Shown piece by piece: positions 300 through 47,534 of a stretch of 64,000 nucleotides of DNA; the first letter of the stretch is position 1, and each line of letters begins with the position of its first letter. The notes beneath the pieces are model-generated. The model ran no database searches and was not told where the DNA came from. It saw nothing but the letters and a program-made list of their open reading frames with translations. This DNA comes from Styela clava (Eukaryota > Chordata > Ascidiacea > Stolidobranchia > Styelidae). Both the position numbers and the translations under genes were made by a program. The stretch is from the NCBI RefSeq assembly GCF_964204865.1, contig NC_135261.1, positions 15,190,001 to 15,254,000 on the forward strand. The letters run 5' to 3'.

Positions 300-3200
300 A
301 CCTAGGTAAAGCTAGCGGCCACTTCCAGCGGACAGTTACCAATTTTTCCAAATTTGAACCCGCCATGTTCCACGACATTTGTCGCGAATTCACTTAATTG
401 CGGCTACATGGATGCAAAAAATTAGGTGATTCTCCCTTTTAGAAACTGACGACAGACCTGAAACATATTAAAAAACAAAAATGATTGAAACAACACATTT
501 TTTCCTCGATAAAATGAATTATTGCTCAGAAGCTCATTTATCGACAAAATCTAAAATTTAACTGAGTTGAAGCGTAATTTATGCAAGAAATAATTTTTTC
601 TCATCCAATTCATTAATACAGTGAATTTGATGAAGATATATAAAACATATATTAAATTTTAAAACAATTTCACTATGCGGAAAGTTGGGAAATACCCCCC
701 AATTAAAGGAAAATTTTTAGGAAATTGTCAATATAACTCAGTTAAAGCGTCATTTATGCAGGAAATAATATTTTCTCATCCAATTCATTAATACAGTGTA
801 TTAGTTGGACAAATATAAAATACATATTAAAATTTAAAAAAAATCCACCGTGCGGAAAGTAGAAAAATTCCCCCCAGTTTAAGAAAAAAATATAGGAAAT
901 CTCCAATTTAACTCAGTTAAAGCGTAATTTAGGTAAGAAGGAATTTTTTCTCATTCAATTCATCAATGCAATGAGTTTGGTGGACAAATATAAAATAGAT
1001 ATTAAAATTTAAAAAAAATCCACCGTGCGGAAAGTAGGGAAATTCCCCTCAATTTAATGAAAATATTTAGGAAATCGTCTATCCAACTCAGTTAAAGCAT
1101 AATTTATGCAAGAAAGAATATTTTCTCATCCAATTCATTAATACAATATATTTGATGGACAAATATAAAATACATATTAAAATTTAAAAAAAATCCACCT
1201 TGCGGAAAGTAGGGAAATTCCCCTCAATTTAAGAAAAAAATATACAAAATTGTCAATTTGACTCAGTTAAAGCGTAATTTAGGTAAGAAGGAATTTTTTC
1301 TCATCCAATTCATTAATGCAGTGTGTTTGGTGAACAAATATAAAATAGATATCAAAATTTTAAAAAAATCCACCATGCGGAAAGTAGGGAAATTCCCCTC
1401 AATTTAATGGAAATATTTAAGAAATCGTCTATCCAACTTAGTTAAAAGATAATTTATGCAAGAAAGAATATTTTCTCATCCAATTCATTACTACAGTGTA
1501 TTTGGAGGACGAATATAAAATACATATTGAAATTTAAAAAAAATCCACCGTGCGGAAAGTAGGGAAATTCCCCCCAATTTGATGAAAATATTTGAGAAAT
1601 CGTCTATTTAACTCAGTTAAAGCGTAATTTATTCAAGAAAGAATATTTTCTCATTCAATTCATTTATACGGTGTATTTGGTGGACAAATATAAAATACAT
1701 ATTAAAATTTAAAAAAAATCCACCATGCGGAAAGTAGGGAAATTCCCCTCAATTTGATGAAAATATTTAAGAAATCGTCTATCCAACTCAGTTAAAAAAT
1801 AATTTATGCAAGAAAGAATATTTTCTCATCCAATTCATTAATACAGTGTAATTGGTGGACAAATATAAAATACATATTAAAATTTGAAAAAAATCCACCG
1901 TGCGGAAAGTAGGGAAATTCCCCTCAATTGAAGAAAAAAATACAAGAAATCGTCAATTTGACTCAGTTAAATCGTAATTTAGGTAAGAAGGAGTTTTTTC
2001 TCATCCAATTCATTAATGCAGTGTGTTTGGTGGACAAATATAAAATACATATTAAAAGTTAAAAAAAATCCACCATGCGGAAAGTAGGGAAATTCGGTAC
2101 TCTCGAAATATGGACACAAAGATGACGCACATCCTGAAAATAAAAGGTGTACCAGGATAGGTTCAGATTTAGAATCTAGATTGTACGCTTTTGGGAGCGC
2201 AGGGAATAACCCATTTATGCAAAAAATATTTTTTTCTCATCAAATTTATTGATACAGTGTATTTGGTGGACGAATATAAAATACATATTAAAATTTAAAA
2301 AAAATCCACCGTGCGGAAAGTGGGGAAATTCCCCCCAATTTAATGGAAATATTTAAGAAATCGTCTATCCAACTCAGTTAAAGCATAATTTATGCAAGAA
2401 AGAATATTTTCATTTTCTCATCAAATTCATTAATACAATGTATTTGGTGGACAGATATAAAATACCTATTAAAATTTAAAAAAAATCCACCGTGCGGAAA
2501 CTAGGGAAATTCCCCTCAATTTAACGGAAATATTTAAGAAATCGTCTATCCAACCCAGTTAAAAAATAATTTATGCAGGAAAGAATATTTTCTCATCCAA
2601 TTCATTAATACAGTGTATTTGGTGGACGAATATAAAATACATATTAAAATTTAAAAAAAATCCACCGTGCGGAAAGTAGGGAAATTCCCCCCAATTTGAT
2701 GAAAATATTTGAAAAATCGTCTATTTAACTCAGTTAAAGCGTAATTTATCCAAGAAAGAATATTTTCTCATCCAATTCATTAATACGGTATATTTGGTGG
2801 ACAAATATAAAATACATATTAAAATTAAAAAAAAATCAACCGTGCGGAAAGTAGGGAAATTTCCCTCAATTGAAGAAAAAAATATAAGAAATTGTCAATT
2901 TGACTCAGTTAAAGCGTAATTTAGGTAAGAACGAATTTTTTCTCATCCAATTCATTAATGCAGTGTGTTTGGTGGACAAATATAAAATAGATATCAAAAT
3001 TTTAAAAAAATCCACCGTGCGGAAAGTAGGGAAATTCCCCTCAATTCAATGGAAATATTTAAGAAATCGTCTATCCAACTTAGTTAAAAAATAATTTATG
3101 CAAGAAAGAATATTTTCTCATCCAATTCATTAATACAGTGTATTTGGTGGACGAATATAAAATACATATTGAAATTTAAAAAAAACCACCGTGCGGAAAG

Positions 3201-4118
3201 TAGGGAAATTCCCCCCAATTTGATGAAAATATTTGAGAAATCGTCTATTTAACTCAGTTAAAGCGTAATTTATTCAAGAAAGAATATTTTCTCATCCAAT
3301 TCATTTATACGGTGTATTTGGTGGACAAATATAAAATACATATTAAAATTTAAAAAAAATCCACCGTGCGGAAAGTAGGGAAATTTCCCTCAATTTGATG
3401 AAAATATTTAAGAAATCGTCTATCCAACTCAGTTAAAAAATAATTTCTGCAAGAAAGAATATTTTCTCATCCAATTCATTTATACGGTGTATTTGGTGGA
3501 CAAATATAAAATACATATTAAAATTTGGAAAAAATCCACCATGCGGAAAGTAGGGAAATTCCCCTCAATTGAAGAAAAAAATATAAGAAATCGTCAATTT
3601 GACTCAGTTAAAGCGTAATTTAGGTAAGAAGGAGTTTTTTCTCATCCAATTCATTAATGCAGTGTTTTTGGTGGACAAATATAAAATCTATATTATAATT
3701 TAAATAAAATCCACCGTGCGGAAAGTAGGGAAATTCCCCCCAATTGAAGAAAAAAATATAAGGAATCGGCAATTTAACTCAATTAAAGCGTAATTTAGGT
3801 AAGAAGGAATTTTTTCTCATCCAATTCATTAATGCAGTGTGTTTGGTGGACAAATATAAAATACATATTAAAATTTGAAAAAAAATCCACCGTGCGGAAA
3901 GTAGGGAATTCCCCTCAATTGAAGAAAAAAATATAAGAAATTGTCAATTTGACTCAGTTAAAGCGTAATTTAGGTAAGAAGGAATTTTTTCTCATCCAAT
4001 TCATTAATGCAGTGTGTTTGGTGGACAAATATAAAATACATATTGAAATTCAAAAAAAATCCACCGTGCGGAACGTGGGGAAATTCCCCCCAATTTAATG
4101 GAAATATTTAAGAAATCT
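300..4118. repeat. left arm: about 20 tandem units of roughly 174 bp
   Basis: The first 375 bases are the unique terminal part of the inverted repeat. From about 600 onward the motif GCGGAAAGTAGGGAAATTCC recurs every 174-175 bases (near 854, 1028, 1202, 1377, 1551 and so on). Each unit also holds a CTCAGTTAAAGC block and a GTGGACAAATATAAAATA block. Two subtypes alternate: one with AGGTAAGAAGGAATTTTT, one with ATGCAAGAAAGAATATTTTC. The array is broken once, by a spacer of about 115 bp at 2093-2207. Short open frames here, such as 2900-3094, are repeat artefacts. Confidence 0.9.
2093..2207 (+). promoter_or_regulatory. promoter-like spacer module, left-arm copy
   Basis: This non-satellite segment replaces part of a repeat unit. 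It is the inverted equivalent of four modules in the right arm and points toward the core. At the TATA position it reads AAATAAAAGG, whereas the right-arm copies read TATAAAAGG, so the box looks weakened here. Confidence 0.55.
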
Positions 4119-5886
4119 AACTTATGTTAAAATCAACGGAATCGTAAATTTATATAAATTAAAGCGAAATCTTGTCATATTTATTGATCATTCCCATTCT
4201 CCTCCATAACTAAATATTATTTTTGAAGTTTTATCATGTTCTTATTACATTTTATTGGTTTACACTACAACCTCGTAACACCCCCTCTCACTCCATATAG
4301 CACTACCTTCCGTAAAACCTCAGTAGTAACTTATGCTGGTAGCTTTGGGTCACCTTAGGTGAACGTGCAGCCTTAACCCAGTACATCAGCAGCCTAAATC
4401 AGAATAGTATTGTCAACCTTAACAGATGAGGTGGCGTCATCAAGATTAGTAACGATTTGACACTTATGGCGCTTCATTTGTTATGTCGAATATGTATGTC
4501 GCCGAACCTTTTAATGCTGTTGTTAAAAAATATCTCAGAATTTGAAAGACTGTGAAACTGTATTAAAGAGCTAAAGGAAGTATGGCACACCGTACCAAGA
4601 CGTTGGAAGAAACGACGATACGATCGATAGCAGCCGCTACGATCACTGTAAACGTATGAAGAAACTTTCAATTCCCAAATGAAGTTTTCACATGAATCAA
4701 TCAACAAATCGTTTTTTATTCGCCAATCACAAAAAAATGGAAGCAAAAAATATCACGAAAAACTTGTATACAGTAGAAACTCTCCGTACGAAAGGCTCTG
4801 GATACGAAAAATCCAACAATTCTTTTCCGAAAACTTGCATAGTGATATTTGTTCATTTTAGATTAATTTAATGCAGTGATGTTCAATACAAACCTAATAT
4901 TTGAATATTGCGACCTTCGAATATCGTTTTTTTGGTGTTTTTGAGAATACCGAATATGACGCACATTTCCTAGCGCCGTCAAACTTTCGATTTAAAAAAA
5001 AATATTCACAGCCATTCTATTTTTTATCGCAATTGAAATCAGCCGTGCGCGTCGTGGCAATAAATTATGGCCAGCATGAAAGAAATTCAAAAAGCGCAAT
5101 TACAATTATTACACAATATTCACAATTATTATCGTCTATTCCAATAAATCTGAAAGCAAATTGTGTCGCAATTAATTGTTTTCACCCTCAATTTCGATAG
5201 CGACCGAACATAACAGGAATTTTTTTCATTTCTTACAATTAAGAGTTTATAAAATGACCTTTAAATGTTATTTAATATCTAACGCGGATTTTATCATTAT
5301 CCCGACGTCGTTGATGACAATATCGTTCACTTTAAGTTGGCGATATCAATAAGCAAAATTAAAATAATAACACCAGACATGAAAGATTAGCGCCGACTCA
5401 AATCAAGTAAAAACCGACTTGAAAAATAAAACAAGTTTTCAGGTCTTAATTCTCCATCAGTGGCGGACGGTAATTTGGGAATCAATCATTTGATTATGAC
5501 GATGGTAAACAAAGGTACATAAGCATACCGTTCTTAGTTTTTATTCGTTATTACTATGTTCTTCCTTCTTTCCGTATGTTCTTTGTTTATTTATTATGCT
5601 GTAATCTAATTCTAACATGTAGTTGTTGGATTTTAAGCATTAATATAATTTATACGAAAATGATGTCCGAGTTTTACGTGGACTTAAAACGGATTAGGGC
5701 ATTTACAGGTAAAACGCCTTATGTAATACGACGGGTCTTCGGAACGAATTAATTTCGTGGGTAGCGCTTCTACTGTATATTCATGGCTCTGTACTCAATG
5801 GACAGGTTAACGGGAAATGGCCATTTGATCTACTTGTTAGTGTCAAGTGGCAACCCTTTGAAACTTATTTTTACATCAAATGCGTT
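4119..5886. other. core of the foldback element, non-coding half
   Basis: I see no convincing gene here. Open frames at 4474-4746 (-), 4679-4861 (+) and 4901-5200 (+) match nothing I recognise. Around 4900-4985 the sequence shares short blocks (TTCGAATATC; CACATT then CTAGCGCCG) with 48080-48145 inside a hAT element, suggesting an old repeat within the core. Any transposase once encoded here is no longer recognisable by eye. Confidence 0.45.
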
Positions 5887-7709
5887 TTAATGCCAACCGG
5901 CCTCGTATGCTGGACATTTCCAAAGTACGTCCAATATCTCCGCAATATCTCCGTTGTAGCATCCAGCATGAAACCAGCGTGGACACACATCACAGCCAAT
6001 CTTTAAAAAAAGTCAAAATACCATGAATATAAAATTATATATTGCATATTTATTGAACACCTATTAGGTTACTTACCCATTCTGCTTCTCCCGTCTCCCC
6101 ACAAAAACTGCAGTACGTCTCCACGCAGTCTGTCAAAAATGTATTTTTAACTGCGTAATGTTTAGATAATTATCTAAATATCAAATATTCATTTCGTCAT
6201 ACCGGAATTCTGAATCACCCAACTGGCAATTTTCGCCCTTTCATATACATATACTGATGTATGGATAATTAAATTTGTATGACTTCCTATATACCTTTAT
6301 CACGTAAATTTCACAACTGGATCCATCCCTCTGAATGGGATGTTCAGTAACCGTTGGTGTCCAGTTTTCGCATTCTTTTCGTAAATTCATCCAGTTTCTG
6401 TGTGTTGTAACGTGTGTAAATTCAGTTTTACTAATATACTTCTCATGTAACTTGATTTTTAAAATCAATACTTTTCATTCAATTTCAATGTCATTCACAA
6501 TTGTCAATGTCATTCCAATTGTAAATACAGTTTGTTACTGGTACAATGTGATTATGTAGTTTATATATTACTTGTAAGAACAGGACACGTTTTTACAAAA
6601 ACAGCCGAATACTTTCAACAAGAGAAATAGAATATTAAAAATAAAGGACTGGATAACTGTAAAGAAGATAATTTTAAAAAATCCACTCCAGGATTTGAAA
6701 GCGATCTGGCAACAGTGAAGTAAAGGTTTATTGAGTTTCTACTTTAGCTTGTAGTTGAAATGGCTAACGATAAGATGTATTTCAGGAATTGAACTCACTT
6801 ATAATTTTCACATGCGTGAGTGGTCTCTTCAATTGAACTTCCATACGGATTCAGAAAGTAGAAATTAATTGTCGTTGTGTCAATGAATTGCAAAGATATT
6901 TTGTTCGAATCAAAATGAAGAATCAAATACAAAAAGGCAATATGTAATTTTGCCACAACAATTTCTTATTTATTGAATATTATTAAAATTTCAAAACAAA
7001 ACTTCATCCTCAGCAAAAGAACCCAGTGATTTTCATTTATCCTGCACGCAGAAACAATCACGCTATAGTTTCCTAAATTTAACTGTAAAACAAATGAGAT
7101 GATATAAGTATGATATTAAAGTGTTGTAGGAAAGATGAATATGGACTTTCTAGATAAAAAAACAATGTCGATTTTTCCAACCCTAATTTTGTTTATACCA
7201 ATGGTTTTCGATCATAGTTCCGCAAGTATATTCCAGCAGTTTTACATCAAATCCGAGGTGTTCGGCGTCAAATTGTTTTTTTCATATTTTTGTAACAAAA
7301 GTAATCATGAAATCAACTTATACATATCAATTACACCGGGGTTCTCGAGCCTCGGATATATTTATTGGTTGTTTCCTATCCGCCTGAAAAATTAAAAACA
7401 TCAAAGATTGAAAGATTGACTTACATCAGTCATTAGATGGTGATGCATGTTGGTGAAAAACACAACCAGCAATATAACTATTCATAACGTAAACATCACG
7501 GCGATTCTTTGTCATCAGTTGAAAGGAGTAAATAATAGTCTGAAAGTATGTGCCGATCAAAAAATTTGAGAACAGTTACAAACGAATTATAAAAATTATT
7601 TAATTGCTTGTGATTGAATAAATTATACTTTTATATCCCATTTGGAATCATGTAGAGGTAGAATTGTTACTGAGTTGTCTGTCGGGAACAGTAGCAGTGA
7701 GACGGTCAT
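5887..7709 (-). pseudogene. Ulp1-type (C48) cysteine protease with C-terminal PHD finger, decayed transposon gene
   Basis: Minus-strand exons, from 5' to 3', are read at 7629-7709 (ATG at 7709), 7425-7539, possibly 7337-7383, 7003-7082, about 6950-6799, 6397-6295, about 6254-6203, 6129-6077 and 6000-5887 (stop TAA). Ulp1 landmarks appear in order: VYVMNSYI (the family's NSF-like strand), NHWVLLL (catalytic His), FYFLNPYG (acidic/Asn region), then IQRDGSSC (oxyanion Gln and catalytic Cys). A PHD finger follows, with YCSFC, GCDVC, WFHAGC and WKCP. Damage: exon 7425-7539 reaches a stop just before its donor unless one T of a run is removed; one join near 6254-6295 is off by a base; the Gly after the catalytic Cys is Glu; the last PHD zinc ligand is Tyr. 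Such proteases cleave SUMO-like conjugates and PHD fingers read histone tails; the role here is inference. Confidence 0.7.
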
Positions 7710-7710
7710 T

Positions 7711-7826
7711 TATTCCCTGCGCTCCCAAAAGCGTACAATCTAGATTCTAAATCTGAACCTATCCTGGTACACCTTTTATATTCAGGTTGTGCGTCATCTT
7801 TGTGTCCATATTTCGAGAGTACCGAA
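7711..7826 (-). promoter_or_regulatory. putative promoter of the Ulp1-PHD gene (TATA module 1)
   Basis: Read on the minus strand, the module carries TATAAAAGG at 7780-7772, about 63 bases upstream of the ATG at 7709. That leaves room for a start site about 30 bases below the box and a short leader. It ends in GGGAGCGCAGGGAATA directly before the start codon. The satellite array lies immediately upstream. Promoter function is inferred from position and motif only. Confidence 0.6.
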
Positions 7827-8472
7827 TTTCCCTACTTTCCGCATGATGGATTTTTTTTAACTTTTAATATGTATTTTATATTTGTCCACCAAACACACTG
7901 CATTAATGAATTGGATGAGAAAAAATTCCTTCTTACCTAAATTACGCTTTAACTGAGTCAAATTGACGATTTCTTATATATATTTTTTAATTGAGGGGTA
8001 ATTCCCTACTTTCCGCACGGTGGATTTTTTTTCAATTTTAATATGTATTTTATATTTGTCCACCAAACACACTGCATTAATGAATTGGATGAGAAAAAAT
8101 TCCTTCTTACCTAAATTACGCTTTAACTGAGTCAAATTGACAATTTCTTATATTTTTTTCTTCAATTGAGGGGAATTTCCCTACTTTCCGCAAAGTGGAT
8201 TTTTTTTAAATTTTAATATGTATTTTATATTTGTCCACCAAATACACCGTATTAATGAATTGGATGAGAAAATATTCTTTCTTGGATAAATTACGCTTTA
8301 ACTGAGTTAAATAGACGATTTTTCAAATATTTTCATCAAATTGGGGGGGAAATTCCCTACTTTCCGCACGGTGGATTTTTTTTAAATTTTAATATGTATT
8401 TTATATTCGTCCACCAAAAACACTGTATTAATAAATTGGATGAGAAAAAATTAATTTTTGCATAAATGAGTT

Positions 8473-8587
8473 ATTCCCTGCGCTCCCAAAAGCGTACAAT
8501 CTAGATTCTAAATCTGAACCTATCCTGGTACACCTTTTATATTCAGGTTGTGCGTCATCTTTGTGCCCATATTTCGAGAGTAACGAA
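8473..8587 (-). promoter_or_regulatory. promoter-like spacer module 2 in the right arm
   Basis: Near-identical copy of the 7711-7826 module, TATA motif intact (CCTTTTATA on the + strand), embedded in the tandem repeats and pointing toward the core. Confidence 0.55.
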
Positions 8588-9757
8588 TTTCCCTACTTTC
8601 CGCATGGTGGATTTTTTTTAACTTTTAATATGTATTTTATATTTGTCCACCGAACACACTGCATAAATGAATTGGATGAGAAAAAACTCCTTCTTACCTA
8701 AATTACGCTTTAATTGAGTCAAATTGACGATTTCTTATATATATTTTTTAATTGAGGGGGAACTCCCTACTTTCCGCATGGTGGATTTTTTTTAAATTTT
8801 AATATGTATTTTATATTTGTCCACCGAACACACTGCATAAATGAATTGGATGAGAAAAAATTCCTTCTTACCTAAATTACGCTTTAATTGAGTCAAATTG
8901 ACGATTTCTTATATATATTTTTTAATTGAGGGGGAACTCCCTACTTTCCGCATGATGGATTTTTTTTAAATTTTAATATGTATTTTATATTTGTCCACCA
9001 AACACACTGCATTAATGAATTGGATGAGAAAAAATTCCTTCTTACCTAAATTACGCTTTAATTGAGTTAAATTGCCGATTTCTTATATTTTTTTCTTCAA
9101 TTGGGGGGAATTTCCCTACTTTCCGCACGGTGGATTTTTTTTAAATTATAATATGTATTTTATATTTGTCCACCAAAAACACTGCATTAATGAATTGGAT
9201 GAGAAAAAACTCCTTCTTACCTAAATTACGCTTTAACTGAGTCAAATTGACGATTTCTCATATTTTTTTCTTCAAATTGGGGGGAATTTCCCTACTTTCC
9301 GCACGGTGGATTTTTTTTAAATTTTAATATGTATTTTATATCTGTCCACCAAATACATTGTATTAATGAATTTGATGAGAAAATATTTTTTCTTGCATAA
9401 ATTATGCTTTAACTGAGTTGGATAGACGATTTCTCAAATATTTCCATTAAATTGGGGGGAATTTCCCCACTTTCCGCACGGTGGATTTTTTTTAAATTTC
9501 AATATGTATTTTATATTTGTCCACCAAACACACTGCATTAATGAATTGGATGAGAAAAAATTCCTTCTTACCTAAATTACGCTTTAACTGAGTCAAATTG
9601 ACAATTTCTTATATTTTTTTCTTCAATTGAGGGGAATTTCCCTACTTTCCGCACGGTGGATTTATTTTAAATTTTAATATGTATTTTATATTCGTCCACC
9701 AAATACACTGTATCAATAAATTGGATGAGAAAAAATTAATTTGTGCATAAATGGGTT

Positions 9758-9872
9758 ATTCCCTGCGCTCCCAAAAGCGTACAATCTAGATTCTAATTCT
9801 GAACCTATCCTGGTACACCTTTTATATTCAGGTTGTGCGTCATCTTTGTGTCCATATTCCGAGAGTACCGAA
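9758..9872 (-). promoter_or_regulatory. promoter-like spacer module 3 in the right arm
   Basis: Third right-arm copy, TATA motif intact. It lies inside the first copy of the duplicated 1.3-kb block. Confidence 0.55.
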
Positions 9873-11392
9873 TTTCGCTACTTTCCGCATGGTGGATTTT
9901 TTTTAACTTTTAATATGTATTTTATATTTGTCCACCAAACACACTGCATTAATGAATTGGATGAGAAAAAATTCCTTCTTACCTAAATTACGCTTTAACT
10001 GAGTCAAATTGACGATTTCTTATATATATTTTTTAATTGAGGGGGAATTCCCTACTTTCCGCACGGTGGATTTTTTTTTAATTTTAATATGTATTTTATA
10101 TTTGTCCTCCAAACACACTGCATTAATGAATTGGATGAGAAAAAATTCCTTCTTGCCTAAATTACGCTTTAATTGAGTTAAATTGCCGATTTCTTATATT
10201 TTTTTCTTCAATTGGGGGGAATTTCCCTACTTTCCGCACGGTGGATTTTTTTTAAATTATAATATGTCTTTTATATTTGTCCACCAAAAACACTGCATTA
10301 ATGAATTGGATGAGAAAAAACTCCTTCTTACCTAAATTACGCTTTATCTGAGTCAAATTGACGATTTCTTATATTTTTTTCTTCAATTGAGGGGAATTTC
10401 CCTACTTTCCGCACGGTGGATTTTTTTCAAATTTTAATATGTATTTTATATTTGTCCACCAAATACACTGTATTAATGAATTGGATGAGAAAATATTCTT
10501 TCTTGCATAAATTATTTTTTAACTGAGTTGGATAGACAATTTCTTAAATATTTTCATTAAATTGAGGGGAATTTCCCTACTTTCCGCACGGTGGATTTTT
10601 TTTAAATTTTAATATGTATTTTATATTTGTTCACCAAACACACTGCATTAATGAATTGGATGAGAAAAAATATCTTCTTACCTAAATTACGCTTTAATTG
10701 AGTTAAATTGCCGATTTCTTATATTTTTTTCTTCAATTGGGGGGAATTTCCCTACTTTCCGCACGGTGGATTTTTTTCAAATTTTAATATGTATTTTATA
10801 TTTGTCCACCAAATACACTGTATTAATGAATTGGATGAGAAAATATTCTTTCCTGCATAAATTATTTTTTAACTGAGTTGGATGGACGATTTCTCAAATA
10901 TTTCCATTAAATTGGGGGGAATTTCCCTACTTTCCGCACGGTGGATTTTTTTTAAATTTTAATATGTATTTTATATCTGTCCACCAAATACATTGTATTA
11001 ATGAATTTGATGAGAAAATATTTTTTCTTGCATAAATTATGCTTTAACTGAGTTGGATAGACGATTTCTCAAATATTTCCATTAAATTGGGGGGAATTTC
11101 CCCACTTTCCGCACGGTGGATTTTTTTTAAATTTCAATATGTATTTTATATTTGTCCACCAAACACACTGCATTAATGAATTGGATGAGAAAAAATTCCT
11201 TCTTACCTAAATTACGCTTTAACTGAGTCAAATTGACAATTTCTTATATTTTTTTCTTCAATTGAGGGGAATTTCCCTACTTTCCGCACGGTGGATTTTT
11301 TTTAAATTTTAATATGTATTTTATATTCGTCCATCAAATACACTGTATCAATAAATTGGATGAGAAAAAATTAATTTGTGCATAAATGGGTT

Positions 11393-11507
11393 ATTCCCTG
11401 CGCTCCCAAAAGCGTACAATCTAGATTCTAATTCTGAACCTATCCTGGTACACCTTTTATATTCAGGTTGTGCGTCATCTTTGTGTCCATATTTCGAGAG
11501 TACCGAA
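11393..11507 (-). promoter_or_regulatory. promoter-like spacer module 4 in the right arm
   Basis: Fourth right-arm copy, exactly 1635 bases from module 3 and sharing its variant base (AATTCTGAACC), so the two arose by block duplication. Confidence 0.55.
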
Positions 11508-13473
11508 TTTCGCTACTTTCCGCATGGTGGATTTTTTTTAACTTTTAATATGTATTTTATATTTGTCCACCAAACACACTGCATTAATGAATTGGATGAG
11601 AAAAAATTCCTTCTTACCTAAATTACGCTTTAACTGAGTGAAATTGACGATTTCCTATATATATTTTTTAATTGAGGGGGAATTCCCTACTTTCCGCACG
11701 GTGGATTTTTTTTAAATTTTAATATGTTATTTATATTTGTCCTCCAAACACACTGCATTAATGAATTGGATGAGAAAAAATTCCTTCTTGCCTAAATTAC
11801 GCTTTAATTGAGTTAAATTGCCGATTTCTTATATTTTTTTCTTCAATTGGGGGGAATTTCCCTACTTTCCGCACGGTGGATTTTTTTTAAATTATAATAT
11901 GTATTTTATATTTGTCCACCAAAAACACTGCATTAATGAATTGGATGAGAAAAAACTCCTTCTTACCTAAATTACGCTTTAACTGAGTCAAATTGACGAT
12001 TTCTTATATTTTTTCTTCAATTGAGGGGAATTTCCCTACTTTCCGCACGGTGGATTTTTTTCAAATTTTAATATGTATTTTATATTTGTCCACCAAATAC
12101 ACTGTATTAATGAATTGGATGAGAAAATATTCTTTCTTGCATAAATTATTTTTTAACTGAGTTGGATAGACAATTTCTTAAATATTTTCATTAAATTGAG
12201 GGGAATTTCCCTACTTTCCGCACGGTGGATTTTTTTAAAATTTTAATATGTATTTTATATTTGTCCACCAAATACACCGTATTAATGAATTGGATGAGAA
12301 AATATTCTTTCTTGAATAAATTATTTTTTAACTGAGTTGGATAGACGGTTTCTTAAATATTTTCATTAAATTGAGGGGAATTTCCCTACTTTCCGCACGG
12401 TGGATTTTTTTAAAATTTTGATATCTATTTCATATTTGTCCACCAAACACACTGCATTAATGAATTGGATGAGAAAAAATTCCTTCTTACCTAAATTACG
12501 CTTTAACTGAGTCAAATTGACAATTTCTCATATTTTTTTCTTCATTTGAGGGGAATTTCCCTACTTTCCGCATGGTGGATTTTTTTTTAATTTTAATATG
12601 TATTTTATATTTGTCCACCAAATATATTGTATAAATGAATTGGATGAGAAAATATTCTTTCTTGCATAAATTATGCTTTAACTGAGTTGGATAGACGATT
12701 TCTTTAATATTTTCATTAAATTGAGGGGAATTTCTCTACTTTCCGCACGGTGGATTTTTTTTAAATTTTGATATCTATTTTATATTTGTCCACCAAACAC
12801 ATTGCATTAATGAATTGGATGAGAAAAAATTCCTTCTTACCTAAATTACGCTTTAACTGAGTTAAATTAGAGATTTCCTATATTTTTTTCTTAAACTGGG
12901 GGGAATTTTTCTACTTTCCGCAAGGTGGATTTTTTTTAAATTTTAATATGTATTTTATATTTGTCCACCAAATTCACTGTATTAATGAATTGGATGAGAA
13001 AATATTATTCCCTGCATAAATGACGCTTTAACTGAGTTATTTTGACAATTTCCTAAAAATTTTCCTTTAATTGGGGGGTATTTCCCAACTTTCCGCACAG
13101 TGGAATTGTTTTAAAATTTAATATATGTTTTATATATCTTCATCAAATTCACTGTATTAATGAATTGGATGAGAAAAAATTATTTCTTGCATAAATTACG
13201 CTTCAACTCAGTTGAATTTTAGATTTTGTTGATAAATGAGCTTCTGAGCAATAATTCATTTTATCGAGGAAAAAATGTGTTGTTTCAATCATTTTTGTTT
13301 TTTATTATGTTTCAGGTCTGTCGTCAGTTTCTAAAAGGGAGAATCACCTAATTTTTTGCATGCATGTAGCCGCAATTAAGTGAATTCGCGACAACTGTCG
13401 TGGAACATGGCGGGTTCAAATTTGGAAAAATTGGTAACTGTCCGCTGGAAGTGGCCGCTAGCTTTACCTAGGT

Positions 13474-24824: not shown

Positions 24825-25862
24825 ATCTTATGTAGTAGCCTATGTTGCAGAAAATCTGCAAATTCATCGCAATGTGACACACCCCCAGTACGGCACACAA
24901 AGGTTACAGTGGCATTTGAGAGCATTAAGCAAAAAAACAGCAATTTTGATCATATGACGGCTGGGATTAATTTAGATTATCATTGAGACAAGCATGGCGC
25001 ATGTGTGGGGTGGCAGACACCCCTTGTTTGTGAGAGACATGAAGCGTTTATTTTATTGAGCCAGATGACTGGACAGTCTTTGAATTTGGGTAGTGTGCCC
25101 TACTGCACACGGTAGTGTGCCCTACTGCACACTGTCTATGCTGGGAGCTTGTGAAGAAATCGTTCTATGAAATTTTCAGTCAAATGCTCTCCAAAATTCA
25201 CCCAAATACTGAAATAGAAAAAAAAGAGGCGCATGAATGGCAACAAAACACAGAAACACCAAATAAATTTGAACAAACATTGCTGATGTATCAGTGCACA
25301 GGAAAGAAACAAAAATTATTGTGATATGCACATCATGGCATCCAGTAGATACGGCCACAGATTATACAATACTGATATTTTAAAAGCTATTACTGTATTA
25401 AGAAAATAGTAGTTTTTCAAAAAAAGGAATTGATCGCTCGATTATGAATTTGATCTTTGTAATTGTGGACATCACAGTGAGTGATTCAGTGAATTTGGTG
25501 TTTTTAAATATTGTTGTGCAAACATTTCAACTGTTTTCTCCTATTCAATTTTCTCCTCAAATTATGTATTGAAATTTCTCTTGATTATCTAACCTTGTCA
25601 CTTTGCTCAAGTTTCTTGTTGTGTCTATTGCTTTTTTCGACTCAATTTGAATCTGGGTGTCACATACTCATGATGGTCAGTGCTGGTCTTCCACTACTAT
25701 CAGTCAATTGCGATATAACCTGGTTACATGATGTATAATAATTTGTGTTTAATTTATTATGCTTTCCTGCATGACATAAAGTGATAGCTCTAGAGTTTTG
25801 TTATGAGTGATGTTGTAAAATTGCTCTATAGAAATACCTATTTATGATTTATATTTGACAGA
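24825..25862. other. spacer between C2orf76 and delta-tubulin
   Basis: Contains a short direct repeat, GGTAGTGTGCCCTACTGCACAC (two copies at about 25089-25131). The frames at 25115 and 25511 have no recognisable domain. The last bases, TTTATATTTGACAG then A, form a 3' splice-site-like sequence directly before the delta-tubulin ATG. Confidence 0.5.
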
Positions 25863-27230
25863 ATGACATCTTCAAGTGTCCTTGTTCAACTAGGACAGTG
25901 TGGCACGCAGTTGGGTCATAATTTGCTTGACACAATTTATCAAGATGCCGTGGAATGTCCTCTTGGCTTTTCTGCCTCACAGAATGAAAGATATCACCGA
26001 ATATCAACTGAAACCTATTTCAAAGAATCAAAAACTGGTTTTCATGAAGCCAGAGCAGTGACTGTTGATATGGAGCCAAAAGTTGTCAATCAAGCTATTG
26101 AATCTGCCAGAAGAAGTGGAAAATGGACATATCCTGCTGGTATGCAACTTTGCCGTAAGTCAGGTTCTGGAAATAACTGGTCGTATGGATTTCAGATACA
26201 CGGATCAAGATGTGAAAATGAAGTATTGAGTTTGCTTCGTAAAGAGGCAGAAAAGTGCGATAGATTGTCTGGATTTATCGTTGTCATGAGTTTGGCTGGA
26301 GGAACTGGTTCAGGCCTTGGTTCGTATGTGGTCCAGCTTATTAAAGACAATTTTCCACATTCTGTTATTCTGAATCCTATTGTTATGCCTTACAAAGCCG
26401 GGGAAGTTGCAGTGCAAAACTATAACGCTGTTTTAACTCTTTCATGTGTGCTTACACACGCCGATGCATCAGTATTATTGCATAATGATCACTTGCACAA
26501 TGTATGTTCAAAATCACTCAATATTGATAAAGTTTCAATAAATCATTTAAACACAGTCGCCGCACATCAGCTTGCTTCTGTTCTGCAGCCCGCAGATTCT
26601 CTCTCAAACAACAGTCTTCTTGAACTTCCTTATAAGCGACAAGACATTTTATTTGATATTGTACGATCCACATCATGCCATTCTCAATACAAAATTTTAA
26701 CTTTGAGATCAGTGCCCCATTTGGCTGATCGTAGTATCGCATTTAGTACTTTTAACTGGCCAAGCCTTTTGAAACGCATGAAACAGATGCATTTGACCAA
26801 TTTTTTTGTTGATGAAGGCATGGACTGGCAAGTACGATTGGAGAAGAGTATGCCAAGTTACACTAAACAGCATAGCAAAAGCCTTGGGAACATGTTGTTT
26901 TTACGAGGTGAGGGTGCAGGAAAATTGACAGAAAATGACTTTCAAGAATTTTTTGATTCACGTTTATACGCTTCGTGGGTTCCTTCTGATGAACAATGCC
27001 ATATTTGGTCAACACAACGTCGTTTCAGACAGTATGAAAAGTCTGTATCAATGCTCAGCAACAACAGTTTTTGCACTGAAGGGCTTGACACTGTAATAAA
27101 CAAAGCTTGGAATATGTTTACAGCAAAAGCATATTTGCATCAATATACGAAATATGGACTCGAAGAAGAAGATTTTTTAAATGCATTTGTTAAAGTAGAA
27201 AATGTAGTTAACAGTTACAGAAAATTGTGA
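25863..27230 (+). CDS. TUBD1: delta-tubulin
   Basis: A 455-codon uninterrupted frame, matching the family length (human about 453). The N-terminal nucleotide-binding loop reads VQLGQCGTQLG (residues 8-18). VDMEPKV at 68-74 and SGSGNNWSYGF at about 100-110 are tubulin landmarks. The GTP-binding glycine loop is AGGTGSGLGS (145-154), and the C-terminus carries WNMFTAKAYLHQYTKYG followed by an EEED stretch, as in delta-tubulins. Delta-tubulin is needed for triplet microtubules of centrioles and basal bodies. The coding region has no introns, unlike vertebrate TUBD1. A 3' splice-site-like TTTGACAG lies one base before the ATG, suggesting a leader intron or trans-splicing. It converges with RSPH14, 441 bases away. 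Confidence 0.97.
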   Translation: MTSSSVLVQLGQCGTQLGHNLLDTIYQDAVECPLGFSASQNERYHRISTETYFKESKTGFHEARAVTVDMEPKVVNQAIESARRSGKWTYPAGMQLCRKSGSGNNWSYGFQIHGSRCENEVLSLLRKEAEKCDRLSGFIVVMSLAGGTGSGLGSYVVQLIKDNFPHSVILNPIVMPYKAGEVAVQNYNAVLTLSCVLTHADASVLLHNDHLHNVCSKSLNIDKVSINHLNTVAAHQLASVLQPADSLSNNSLLELPYKRQDILFDIVRSTSCHSQYKILTLRSVPHLADRSIAFSTFNWPSLLKRMKQMHLTNFFVDEGMDWQVRLEKSMPSYTKQHSKSLGNMLFLRGEGAGKLTENDFQEFFDSRLYASWVPSDEQCHIWSTQRRFRQYEKSVSMLSNNSFCTEGLDTVINKAWNMFTAKAYLHQYTKYGLEEEDFLNAFVKVENVVNSYRKL

Positions 27231-44004: not shown

Positions 44005-44082
44005 GGGATTGGGCCCAGATATCCATTACCTAGGTCATTTGTTTGTCATTTTCTGTCTGTCATTTAGTTAAAAAAAGGCAAC

Positions 44083-45408
44083 ATGGGTGAGGAAAATGAT
44101 GGGACATTTATTGTTCGAATTCGGGGTTTGCCCTGGTCTGCGAGCGAGGCAGAAATTCTTACTTTTCTTACTGATGTTAACATCGTTAATGGGGAGGAAG
44201 GGATCCACAAGACATACACAAGGGAAGGTCGGCCCAGCGGGGAGGCATATGTAGAACTTCATTCTGATTTGGACTTGCAAAATGCTTTGGCAAAAGATCA
44301 TGAAATGATGGGGAGGCGGTACATCGAGGTATTTAAATCGACAAGTAAAGAAATGGAATATGTCCTCGGTCGAAGTGGGCAGGATTCTGTAGAGCAGGAA
44401 AATTATGATGGTGTATTAAGAATTCGGGGTCTTCCCTATCAATGCTCGAAAGAGGAAATTGCCCAGTTTTTTTCAGGGTTAGAAATTAAACCCAATGGGA
44501 TTACTATGACAATCGCAAATGGTCGTTGCACTGGGGAAGCTTATGTGCAATTTGCCAGCCAAAACATCGCTGATGAAGCTATGAAAAAGCATAAGCAAAA
44601 AATAGGTCATAGGTACATTGAAATATTTAAAAGTAACAGGTCTGAACTTCGCGACTCGACGTCCGGGATACCAAGGTTGGGACGCAGCAACCCCCGAAGG
44701 GGTCCCTATGATAGGCCTTCACAGGGTGGTGGCGGTGGTGGAAGGGGCCCCAACCGAGGATATGATAGTGGGAGATCCGTGGGTGGCTATGGAGGTTACA
44801 GAGGTGGTGGGGATTACTCTGATGACTACGATAGCTATGGTGATTCTTCTAGTAGCTATGGACCATGGGGAAGAGGCGGGCAAAAGGGTTATTCACATGG
44901 AAGAAATGGTGGTGGGTGGAGCGGGGACAACAACTTCGATAATGGTGGTTCTGGTAGTAGTTATACTGTCCACATGCGGGGTTTGCCCTACCAGGCTAGA
45001 GATGATGATATCAACAGTTTTTTCTCCCCTGTTGTTCCTGTGTCAATTCACATGGAGCGTGGGAAAGATGGGAGGTTAAATGGGGAAGCGAATGTCGACT
45101 TTGCGTCATACCATGATGCCCAAGCGGCAATGTCAAATGATAGAGCGATGATGCAACATCGCTATATAGAATTATTTCTTCGATGTGATGGGAGCGAAGG
45201 GGATGGTGGAAGATCGGGTGGATATGGTCGTGGTGGTGGAGGTTACGGTGGAAATTCACGCACGGGAGGTGGTTATGGTGGAAGTCGCCAGGGATATGGC
45301 AGAGGAGGTGGAGGTCGTCAGGGTGGATATGACTACGGGGATAGTGGTGGTTATGGTTATGACAACTTCGATTCCTACAGTCGGGGTGGAAATTATAAAC
45401 CATTTTGA
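44083..45408 (+). CDS. hnRNP H/F-family RNA-binding protein, uninterrupted coding region
   Basis: A 441-codon frame with three quasi-RRMs: residues about 8-87 (VRIRGLPWSASEAEI; EGRPSGEAYVEL; RRYIEVFKS), about 105-182 (LRIRGLPYQCSKEEIAQFF; GRCTGEAYVQF; HRYIEIFKS) and about 293-368 (VHMRGLPYQARDDDINSFF; NGEANVDF; HRYIELFL). Gly/Tyr/Arg-rich linkers follow the second and third domains. This order is that of hnRNP H/F, which bind G-rich RNA and regulate splicing. Vertebrate members are multi-exon; here the coding region has no intron, though a GTTTTACAG acceptor at 44005 suggests a spliced leader. The start context CAACATGGG is good. Several long frames on other phases here come from the GGN codon runs. 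Confidence 0.93.
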   Translation: MGEENDGTFIVRIRGLPWSASEAEILTFLTDVNIVNGEEGIHKTYTREGRPSGEAYVELHSDLDLQNALAKDHEMMGRRYIEVFKSTSKEMEYVLGRSGQDSVEQENYDGVLRIRGLPYQCSKEEIAQFFSGLEIKPNGITMTIANGRCTGEAYVQFASQNIADEAMKKHKQKIGHRYIEIFKSNRSELRDSTSGIPRLGRSNPRRGPYDRPSQGGGGGGRGPNRGYDSGRSVGGYGGYRGGGDYSDDYDSYGDSSSSYGPWGRGGQKGYSHGRNGGGWSGDNNFDNGGSGSSYTVHMRGLPYQARDDDINSFFSPVVPVSIHMERGKDGRLNGEANVDFASYHDAQAAMSNDRAMMQHRYIELFLRCDGSEGDGGRSGGYGRGGGGYGGNSRTGGGYGGSRQGYGRGGGGRQGGYDYGDSGGYGYDNFDSYSRGGNYKPF

Positions 45409-46812: not shown

Positions 46813-46823
46813 TGGCATAAATA

Positions 46824-47534
46824 ATGGGTAAATTCTGTTTGATTTTATTCTCAGATTTCCACGATACACAGAATACAAATCTTAAAACATTTATCCAGAC
46901 TAGCTTAGAATGGTTTACATCGTCTTCCCTCTTTCTTATCGAAAGATATCGGAGTCGTATTTATACGTTGATCATAAACCTTATTAAATACTGTAAACGT
47001 GAGCTCGTGATTCACGTTATAAACAGAAACTCCTATTATCTCAATAAAGGTAATTATGTACATCGTACGGATGGGAACTTAGATATAATTATTTCAATCA
47101 GTGCCAAAGGTCTTGAGAATATAGATTTTAATTTGATAATGACTGGATGGGACCTGTTATGTTTCTTAAACTGGTGTAATTTGATTCCTACGAAAGTCTT
47201 TGTTCGAATTTTGGGAAAAATTATCGAAAGATATCGGAGTCGTATTTATACGTTGATCATAAACCTTATTAAATACTGTAAACGTGAGCTCGTGATTCAC
47301 GTTATAAACAGAAACTCCTATTATCTCAATAAAGGTAATTATGTACATCGTACGGATGGGAACTTAGATATAATTATTTCAATCAGTGCCAAAGGTCTTG
47401 AGAATATAGATTTTAATTTGATAATGACTGGATGGGACCTGTTATGTTTCTTAAACTGGTGTAATTTGATTCCTACGAAAGTCTTTGTTCGAATTTTGGG
47501 AAAAATTAACTTTGTCATGATGATTTCAACATGA
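46824..47534 (+). other. 236-codon ORF built from an exact 285-bp in-frame duplication
   Basis: The frame begins at 46824. Bases 46938-47222 and 47223-47507 appear identical through their whole 285-base length (95 codons), so the frame stays open. Each copy encodes RYRSRIYTLIINLIKYCKRE, then GLENIDFNLIMTGWDLL and PTKVFVRILGKI. I recognise no family. Codon use and composition are compatible with coding, but the frame sits between a MITE and a hAT element, so it may be part of a transposon. Perfect identity points to a very recent duplication or an assembly artefact. Confidence 0.4.

Follow-up and report, generated by a model that had tools for sequence, protein, structure and literature searches.

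Remains of an Ulp1-PHD gene in the core of a putatively Mutator-like foldback family of the ascidian Styela clava

Plant Kaonashi MULEs are Mutator-like elements that carry a ULP-like gene, much as the ascidian element described here carries an Ulp1-like one; they are not known to carry a PHD finger. Among DNA transposases, the pairing of Ulp1 with PHD was published in 2010 by Bao, Kapitonov and Jurka (PMC2836005). Table 1 of that paper gives Ginger1-9_HM as 'Ulp1, PHD'; the legend to its Figure 1e announces an alignment of Ulp1 and PHD from Ginger1 and Mutator transposases; and its text reports, for hydra and lancelet, Mutator elements that contain Ulp1, and suggests that in the course of transposition the Ulp1 and OTU domains of transposons may target DNA-repair factors further downstream. 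A foldback element with an Ulp1-PHD gene was not found among the literature titles and abstracts listed.

The locus considered here lies in a stretch of 64,000 nt (contig C16:15190001-15254000; G+C 34.6%), called the window below; the genome searched with it comprises 376.6 Mb in 379 contigs. TTAGGG repeats in that genome (3093 forward and 5245 reverse matches) argue against an arthropod host and, together with the tubulin-family and RRM genes of the window, for an animal. On the minus strand of the window, at 5887-7709, is the remnant of a multi-exon gene for an Ulp1-like (Peptidase_C48) protease with a PHD finger, inside the core of a foldback element. The initial annotation had proposed both the domain pair and the location, and both are confirmed: the Ulp1 landmarks and the PHD finger can be read in order in the window itself, the latter above the Pfam cut-off, and an element with inverted arms extends from 300 to 13473. 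The parts are as follows.

300..13473, no strand: foldback element, ends ACCTAGGTAAAGC...GCTTTACCTAGGT, with CTGCATAT (8 bp) flanking both sides
300..4116 (inner edge approximate), no strand: left arm; outer part of ~247 bp, then ~175-bp tandem repeats
4767..5779, no strand: ~1-kb nested insert bounded by imperfect 27-nt inverted repeats; also found within the core of other copies
5887..6000, minus strand: exon 8; remaining PHD finger and stop codon; PF00628 match
6077..6129, minus strand: exon 7; first Cys pair of the PHD finger
6203..6244, minus strand: exon 6, 3' remainder; ~210 bp absent at 6244/6247
6295..6430, minus strand: exon 5; holds the catalytic Gln and Cys; matched by C48 in the composite
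6799..6887, minus strand: exon 4; ID..LNPYG; AG missing from the acceptor in 16/16 foldback copies
7014..7082, minus strand: exon 3; holds the catalytic His-Trp; in the window copy the donor is not GT
7328..7383, minus strand: possible exon 2; acceptor AG in 16/16 copies and in L055
7425..7539, minus strand: exon 1, C48 part; 115 bp, as in 7/16 copies, 123 bp in most others
7629..7709, minus strand: exon 0 (proposed); ATG at its start, donor GTATAA
7716..13473 (inner edge approximate), no strand: right arm; ~175-bp tandem repeats, longer spacings of ~236 bp, then outer part

The element is ~13.2 kb long. Self-comparison of the window shows 300-1763 to be 96% complementary to 12010-13473; inverted arms of such length, made up largely of tandem repeats, mark it as a foldback element. 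Its outer 247 bp have at least 40 matches in the genome (best 40 of 67 candidates scored), many of them inward-facing pairs 5-15 kb apart. Five elements, the window's and four others (the C3 element being left out), were read at both ends for target duplications. Four have exact 9-bp duplications: GATATGATA at C9:1.2 Mb, CCTAATTTT at C16:1.6 Mb, CATTTCAGG at L056 and TTTCCAATC at L061; the window's own is 8 bp, all five being read by eye. All lie in the range of 8-11 bp expected of MULEs. The family ends can enclose other contents: L056 has a different core with no ORF longer than 67 aa, and L061 has the 175-bp repeats without the Ulp1-PHD gene and without any large frame. The nested insert, which we take, by eye, to be pogo/Tigger-like, sits between the end of the Ulp1-PHD gene and the arm; part of it (5142-5778) recurs elsewhere in the genome at ~72%.

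Elsewhere in the window three open frames may be noted: one of 460 aa at 25848-27227, of the tubulin family (PF00091, 150 bits) and delta-like by eye; one of 446 aa at 44068-45405, with two RRM stretches and hnRNP H/F-like by eye; and one at 46821-47531 whose translation contains a repeated stretch (ERYRSRIYTLIINLIKYCKRELVIHV), probably a tandem duplication.

No transposase was found in the six read-through frames of the foldback core, where Pfam names the PHD finger alone (20.5 bits, below cut-off), nor in three plus frames of the L057 element over its initial 7.9 kb (L060). With L056 and L061 devoid of large frames, these four sequences yielded no MULE transposase in an element with such ends, and the Mutator assignment is therefore founded on ends and duplications. 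The connection with Mutator-like elements that was raised at the outset stands as far as the ends go (the 9-bp duplications in 4/5 elements and the long terminal repeats) and gains from a MULE-type frame with a C48-PHD tail in the same genome, described below; in the matter of a transposase it does not. The family is accordingly termed Mutator-like by its ends, as it appears from sequence, and is not filed as a MULE member.

The four Ulp1 landmarks are a W..II start motif at 7709-7629 continuing into 7539 (read by eye), His-Trp at 7082-7014, LNPYG at 6887-6799 and Q-x5-Cys at 6430-6295. Set by eye against L002, a SENP-like frame of the same genome, the His, Gln and Cys align, and the third residue of the triad is Asn where the SENP has Asp. 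A Pfam search of the exon translations, suggested earlier as a check, returns PHD (PF00628, cut-off 24) at 27.6 bits from the piece 5890-6012 alone and at 32.5 bits when the preceding exon is joined, on window letters only. Peptidase_C48 (PF02902, cut-off 20.7) reaches 17.4 bits with the window's own exons joined, below the cut-off; a composite that contains exons of sibling copies, and so is not window letters alone, gives 35.7 bits for C48 and 32.2 for PHD. Among PDB sequences the best matches are to PHD fingers, with CHD4 at the head (E 1.9e-07), whereas proteases match only weakly (ChlaDub2, E 0.034; SENP1, E 0.045). Seven of the eight C4-H-C3 zinc ligands are present, exactly as first counted, the last Cys being read as Tyr; as not all eight are there, the finger is degenerate. 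Of the splice joins modelled, six are in phase (0-1, 3-4, 4-5, 5-6, 6-7 and 7-8); the exon-3 donor is not GT and the exon-4 acceptor is not AG.

L002 and L003, the strongest Ulp1 matches opened in the genome, were considered as relatives and set aside: they are SENP-like frames of host type, not close to the foldback gene. Three places (C5:18272457/18279260, C8:15522210/15530123 and C17:12057373/12065113) also have C48 frames in inverted pairs, separated by 7-8 kb; those opened are SENP-like (L002, L003), and the pairs appear amplified, perhaps within palindromes.

At least 19 other genomic places, of which two are short, contain part or all of the gene region at 95-99% identity; the element core matches at least 87 places (best 40 of 951 candidates scored). 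These further copies, together with the diverged relatives L055 and L057, which keep several exons, make the gene more than a chance assembly of motifs. Sixteen of the 20 gene-region copies (the window and 15 others) were aligned, along with L055; left outside were L043 (gene partial), L049 (split), L054 (lacking the 5' part) and a short fragment on C6 at 8.51 Mb.

That the window copy is damaged, as first noted, is plain. It lacks 210 bp of the exon 6 region, present fully or nearly so in 17 of 18 other fetched copies; its exon 1 is 8 bp short, a shortage found in 7/16 copies; and further lesions are common to the family. The exon-4 acceptor is not AG in any of the 16 foldback copies, and is AG in L055; the exon-3 donor is not GT in 10/16. 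The codon of the last PHD Cys is replaced in 15/16, one of these being frame-shifted and read at the DNA level; the sole aligned copy to keep it, L038, has a stop just before it. Exon 6 is wholly or partly gone in two of the 16, the window included, and is 12 bp shorter in a third. An exact anchor of exon 0 is found in 15/16, one of them with a stop. Stops in exons other than exon 4, whose acceptor is lost throughout, occur in at least five of the 16 (L038, L041, L042, L052 and L053). By the exon model no gene is intact among the 16; nor was an intact paralogue, of the kind that the initial annotation proposed to collect, found in the assembly among the best-scored candidates listed.

The pattern of variation in the aligned copies agrees with this picture. 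Variable exon sites number 24, 26 and 24 at codon positions 1, 2 and 3 (of 226), against 79 of 1193 sites in intron columns with at least eight sequences. Variation that is even over codon positions, and no lower than in introns, gives no sign of protein-level selection while the family spread. With no intact copy besides, the Ulp1-PHD gene is to be regarded as an ordinary relic that spread in the foldback family as a passenger. When foldback copies are compared with L057, the bias towards any codon position is likewise slight or absent (6/6/10 and 5/4/5 changes), which does not demonstrate past selection.

The diverged relatives reach further back. L055 (C13) keeps exons 1, 4, 5, 6, 7 and 8 at 66-99% DNA identity; it is without exon 3, its Cys exon is disrupted, and its sequence diverges just upstream of LHDSKWDIK. 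In L057 (C3), a relative at ~70-80%, the Cys exon and the PHD exons remain, with parts of exon 6. Beyond its gene end comes a stretch like window 4721-4657 and, ~140 bp from that end, a terminal repeat resembling that of the window (local score 36; the maximum in 500 shuffles was 18), without the 175-bp arrays. Facing it at a distance of 9.15 kb is a repeat that matches it, though the outermost bases there do not. As L057 joins the same gene end to a related terminal repeat, the gene is an old resident of the transposon lineage and not a recent capture from the host.

Other transposon-type frames of this genome show C48, PHD or both, the PHD match being weak in two of them. In L058:605-3643, open over 1013 aa, C48 scores 37.2 bits, over the cut-off, and PHD (16.4), MULE (15.2) and SWIM (13.6) fall below theirs; L059, which by eye resembles it and lies 5 kb off on the opposite strand, scores 34.0 for MULE, over the cut-off. 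L063:184-3729, open over 1182 aa, has C48 at 26.1, over, and PHD at 20.7, under; its front part is MULE-like by eye alone, and Pfam names no transposase there. L062:214-2256 (681 aa) joins DDE_1, of pogo/Tigger type, at 86.7 bits to a C-terminal PHD at 26.3, both over their cut-offs; frames of its size with the same weak match are found in at least five further places. All are distant from the foldback gene: the C48-PHD parts of L058 and L063 show 19-31% identity to it over parts, or 19-34% with L062 included. In tblastn against the foldback relatives the 1013-aa L058 protein gave a single match (E 3.9), and the three transposon proteins together likewise one, between PHD fingers (E 0.29). L058 and L063 are candidates for recently active families.

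One way to account for these observations, and the one held here with good confidence, is that the window preserves, in decayed form, the 3' part of an Ulp1-PHD gene borne by a transposon, now a passenger in a non-autonomous Mutator-like foldback family. In the ancestral element the gene would have stopped just within one terminal repeat, being either a second gene of the element's own or the tail of its transposase. A derivative would then have lost the remainder, gained the pogo-like insert and grown arms of 175-bp repeats, and would have been mobilised by a transposase, presumably Mutator-like, acting in trans. In the ancestor the protein may have removed SUMO from proteins near PHD-bound chromatin and so helped transposition, the finger serving as a chromatin tether and the transposase being, we infer, a possible target.

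A variant of this history makes the ancestral gene a standalone accessory one, with its start at the ATG of 7709, instead of the tail of a transposase. Exon 0 does open with that ATG at the arm boundary, in phase with exon 1; but the ATG stands at the edge of a truncated core, L055 differs just upstream of LHDSKWDIK, so that it may be accidental, and the two open frames of the same genome (L058 and L063) look like fusions. The variant is rather doubtful.

A second perspective supposes that the gene was never the element's own: that it is a captured fragment of a host gene, as in Pack-MULE transduplication. The gene retains introns and lacks its 5' part, as capture would have it, and capture by MULEs has been reported in metazoans (PMC8277862). 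Against this, the best-scored candidates listed include no source gene outside transposons; L057 has the same gene end and a related terminal repeat without the 175-bp arrays; and C48 accompanies PHD in two other transposon-type frames of the genome. Capture is therefore a distinctly unlikely origin.

The initial annotation's further suggestion, interference with host chromatin or SUMO silencing, taken here as a functional protease and histone reader with which the element would resist silencing by its host, can draw on the catalytic His, Gln and Cys kept in most aligned copies and on the recurrence of the domain pair in transposons (PMC2836005), but is scarcely credible for a gene with one acceptor lost in every aligned copy, stops elsewhere in several and codon positions 1 and 2 as variable as 3. 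The domains of a dead cargo gene are in themselves no evidence of a fight against host silencing.

A wider reading is offered tentatively. Several transposon-type proteins of different kinds in this one genome (the MULE-type, the 1182-aa, the DDE_1/pogo-type and the foldback ancestor) would each have a C-terminal PHD finger, preceded in three by Ulp1. A chromatin-reading deSUMOylase may thus have been recruited repeatedly and convergently, the foldback gene being the fossil of a further lineage. A role for deSUMOylation in transposition is testable on the open C48-PHD frames, L058 and L063.

Known elements resemble this one in different respects. Rehavkus (PMC6446971) shares 9-bp duplications, a PHD finger and a minisatellite near the TIR; it differs in that the finger lies within the transposase, in TIRs of 26-400 bp, and in that 'Ulp' is not named in that text. 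Tetris, a foldback element of Drosophila virilis, is like the present family (PMC4079207) in having TIRs with ~220-bp tandem repeats and duplications of 8-10 bp, and in being placed in Mutator by duplication length with no autonomous copy found; its complete copies have no conserved ORFs, whereas the core here holds a recognisable gene relic. Ginger1-9_HM, as given in PMC2836005, is alike in the Ulp1 catalytic domain and PHD finger, in being a cut-and-paste DNA transposon and in having introns. In Ginger1 and Mutator transposases, by the same account, Ulp1/PHD is the C-terminal part of the transposase, whereas here there is a dead gene in an element with kilobase arms; Ginger1 has 4-bp CCGG/CCGT duplications and TIRs of 40-270 bp, as against 9-bp duplications here. 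Membership of Ginger1 was accordingly rejected: the foldback ends are ACCTAGGT, with those 9-bp duplications, not TGTNR with CCGG/CCGT. The foldback family with its arms of 175-bp repeats is an addition to the known DNA transposons bearing Ulp1 and PHD.
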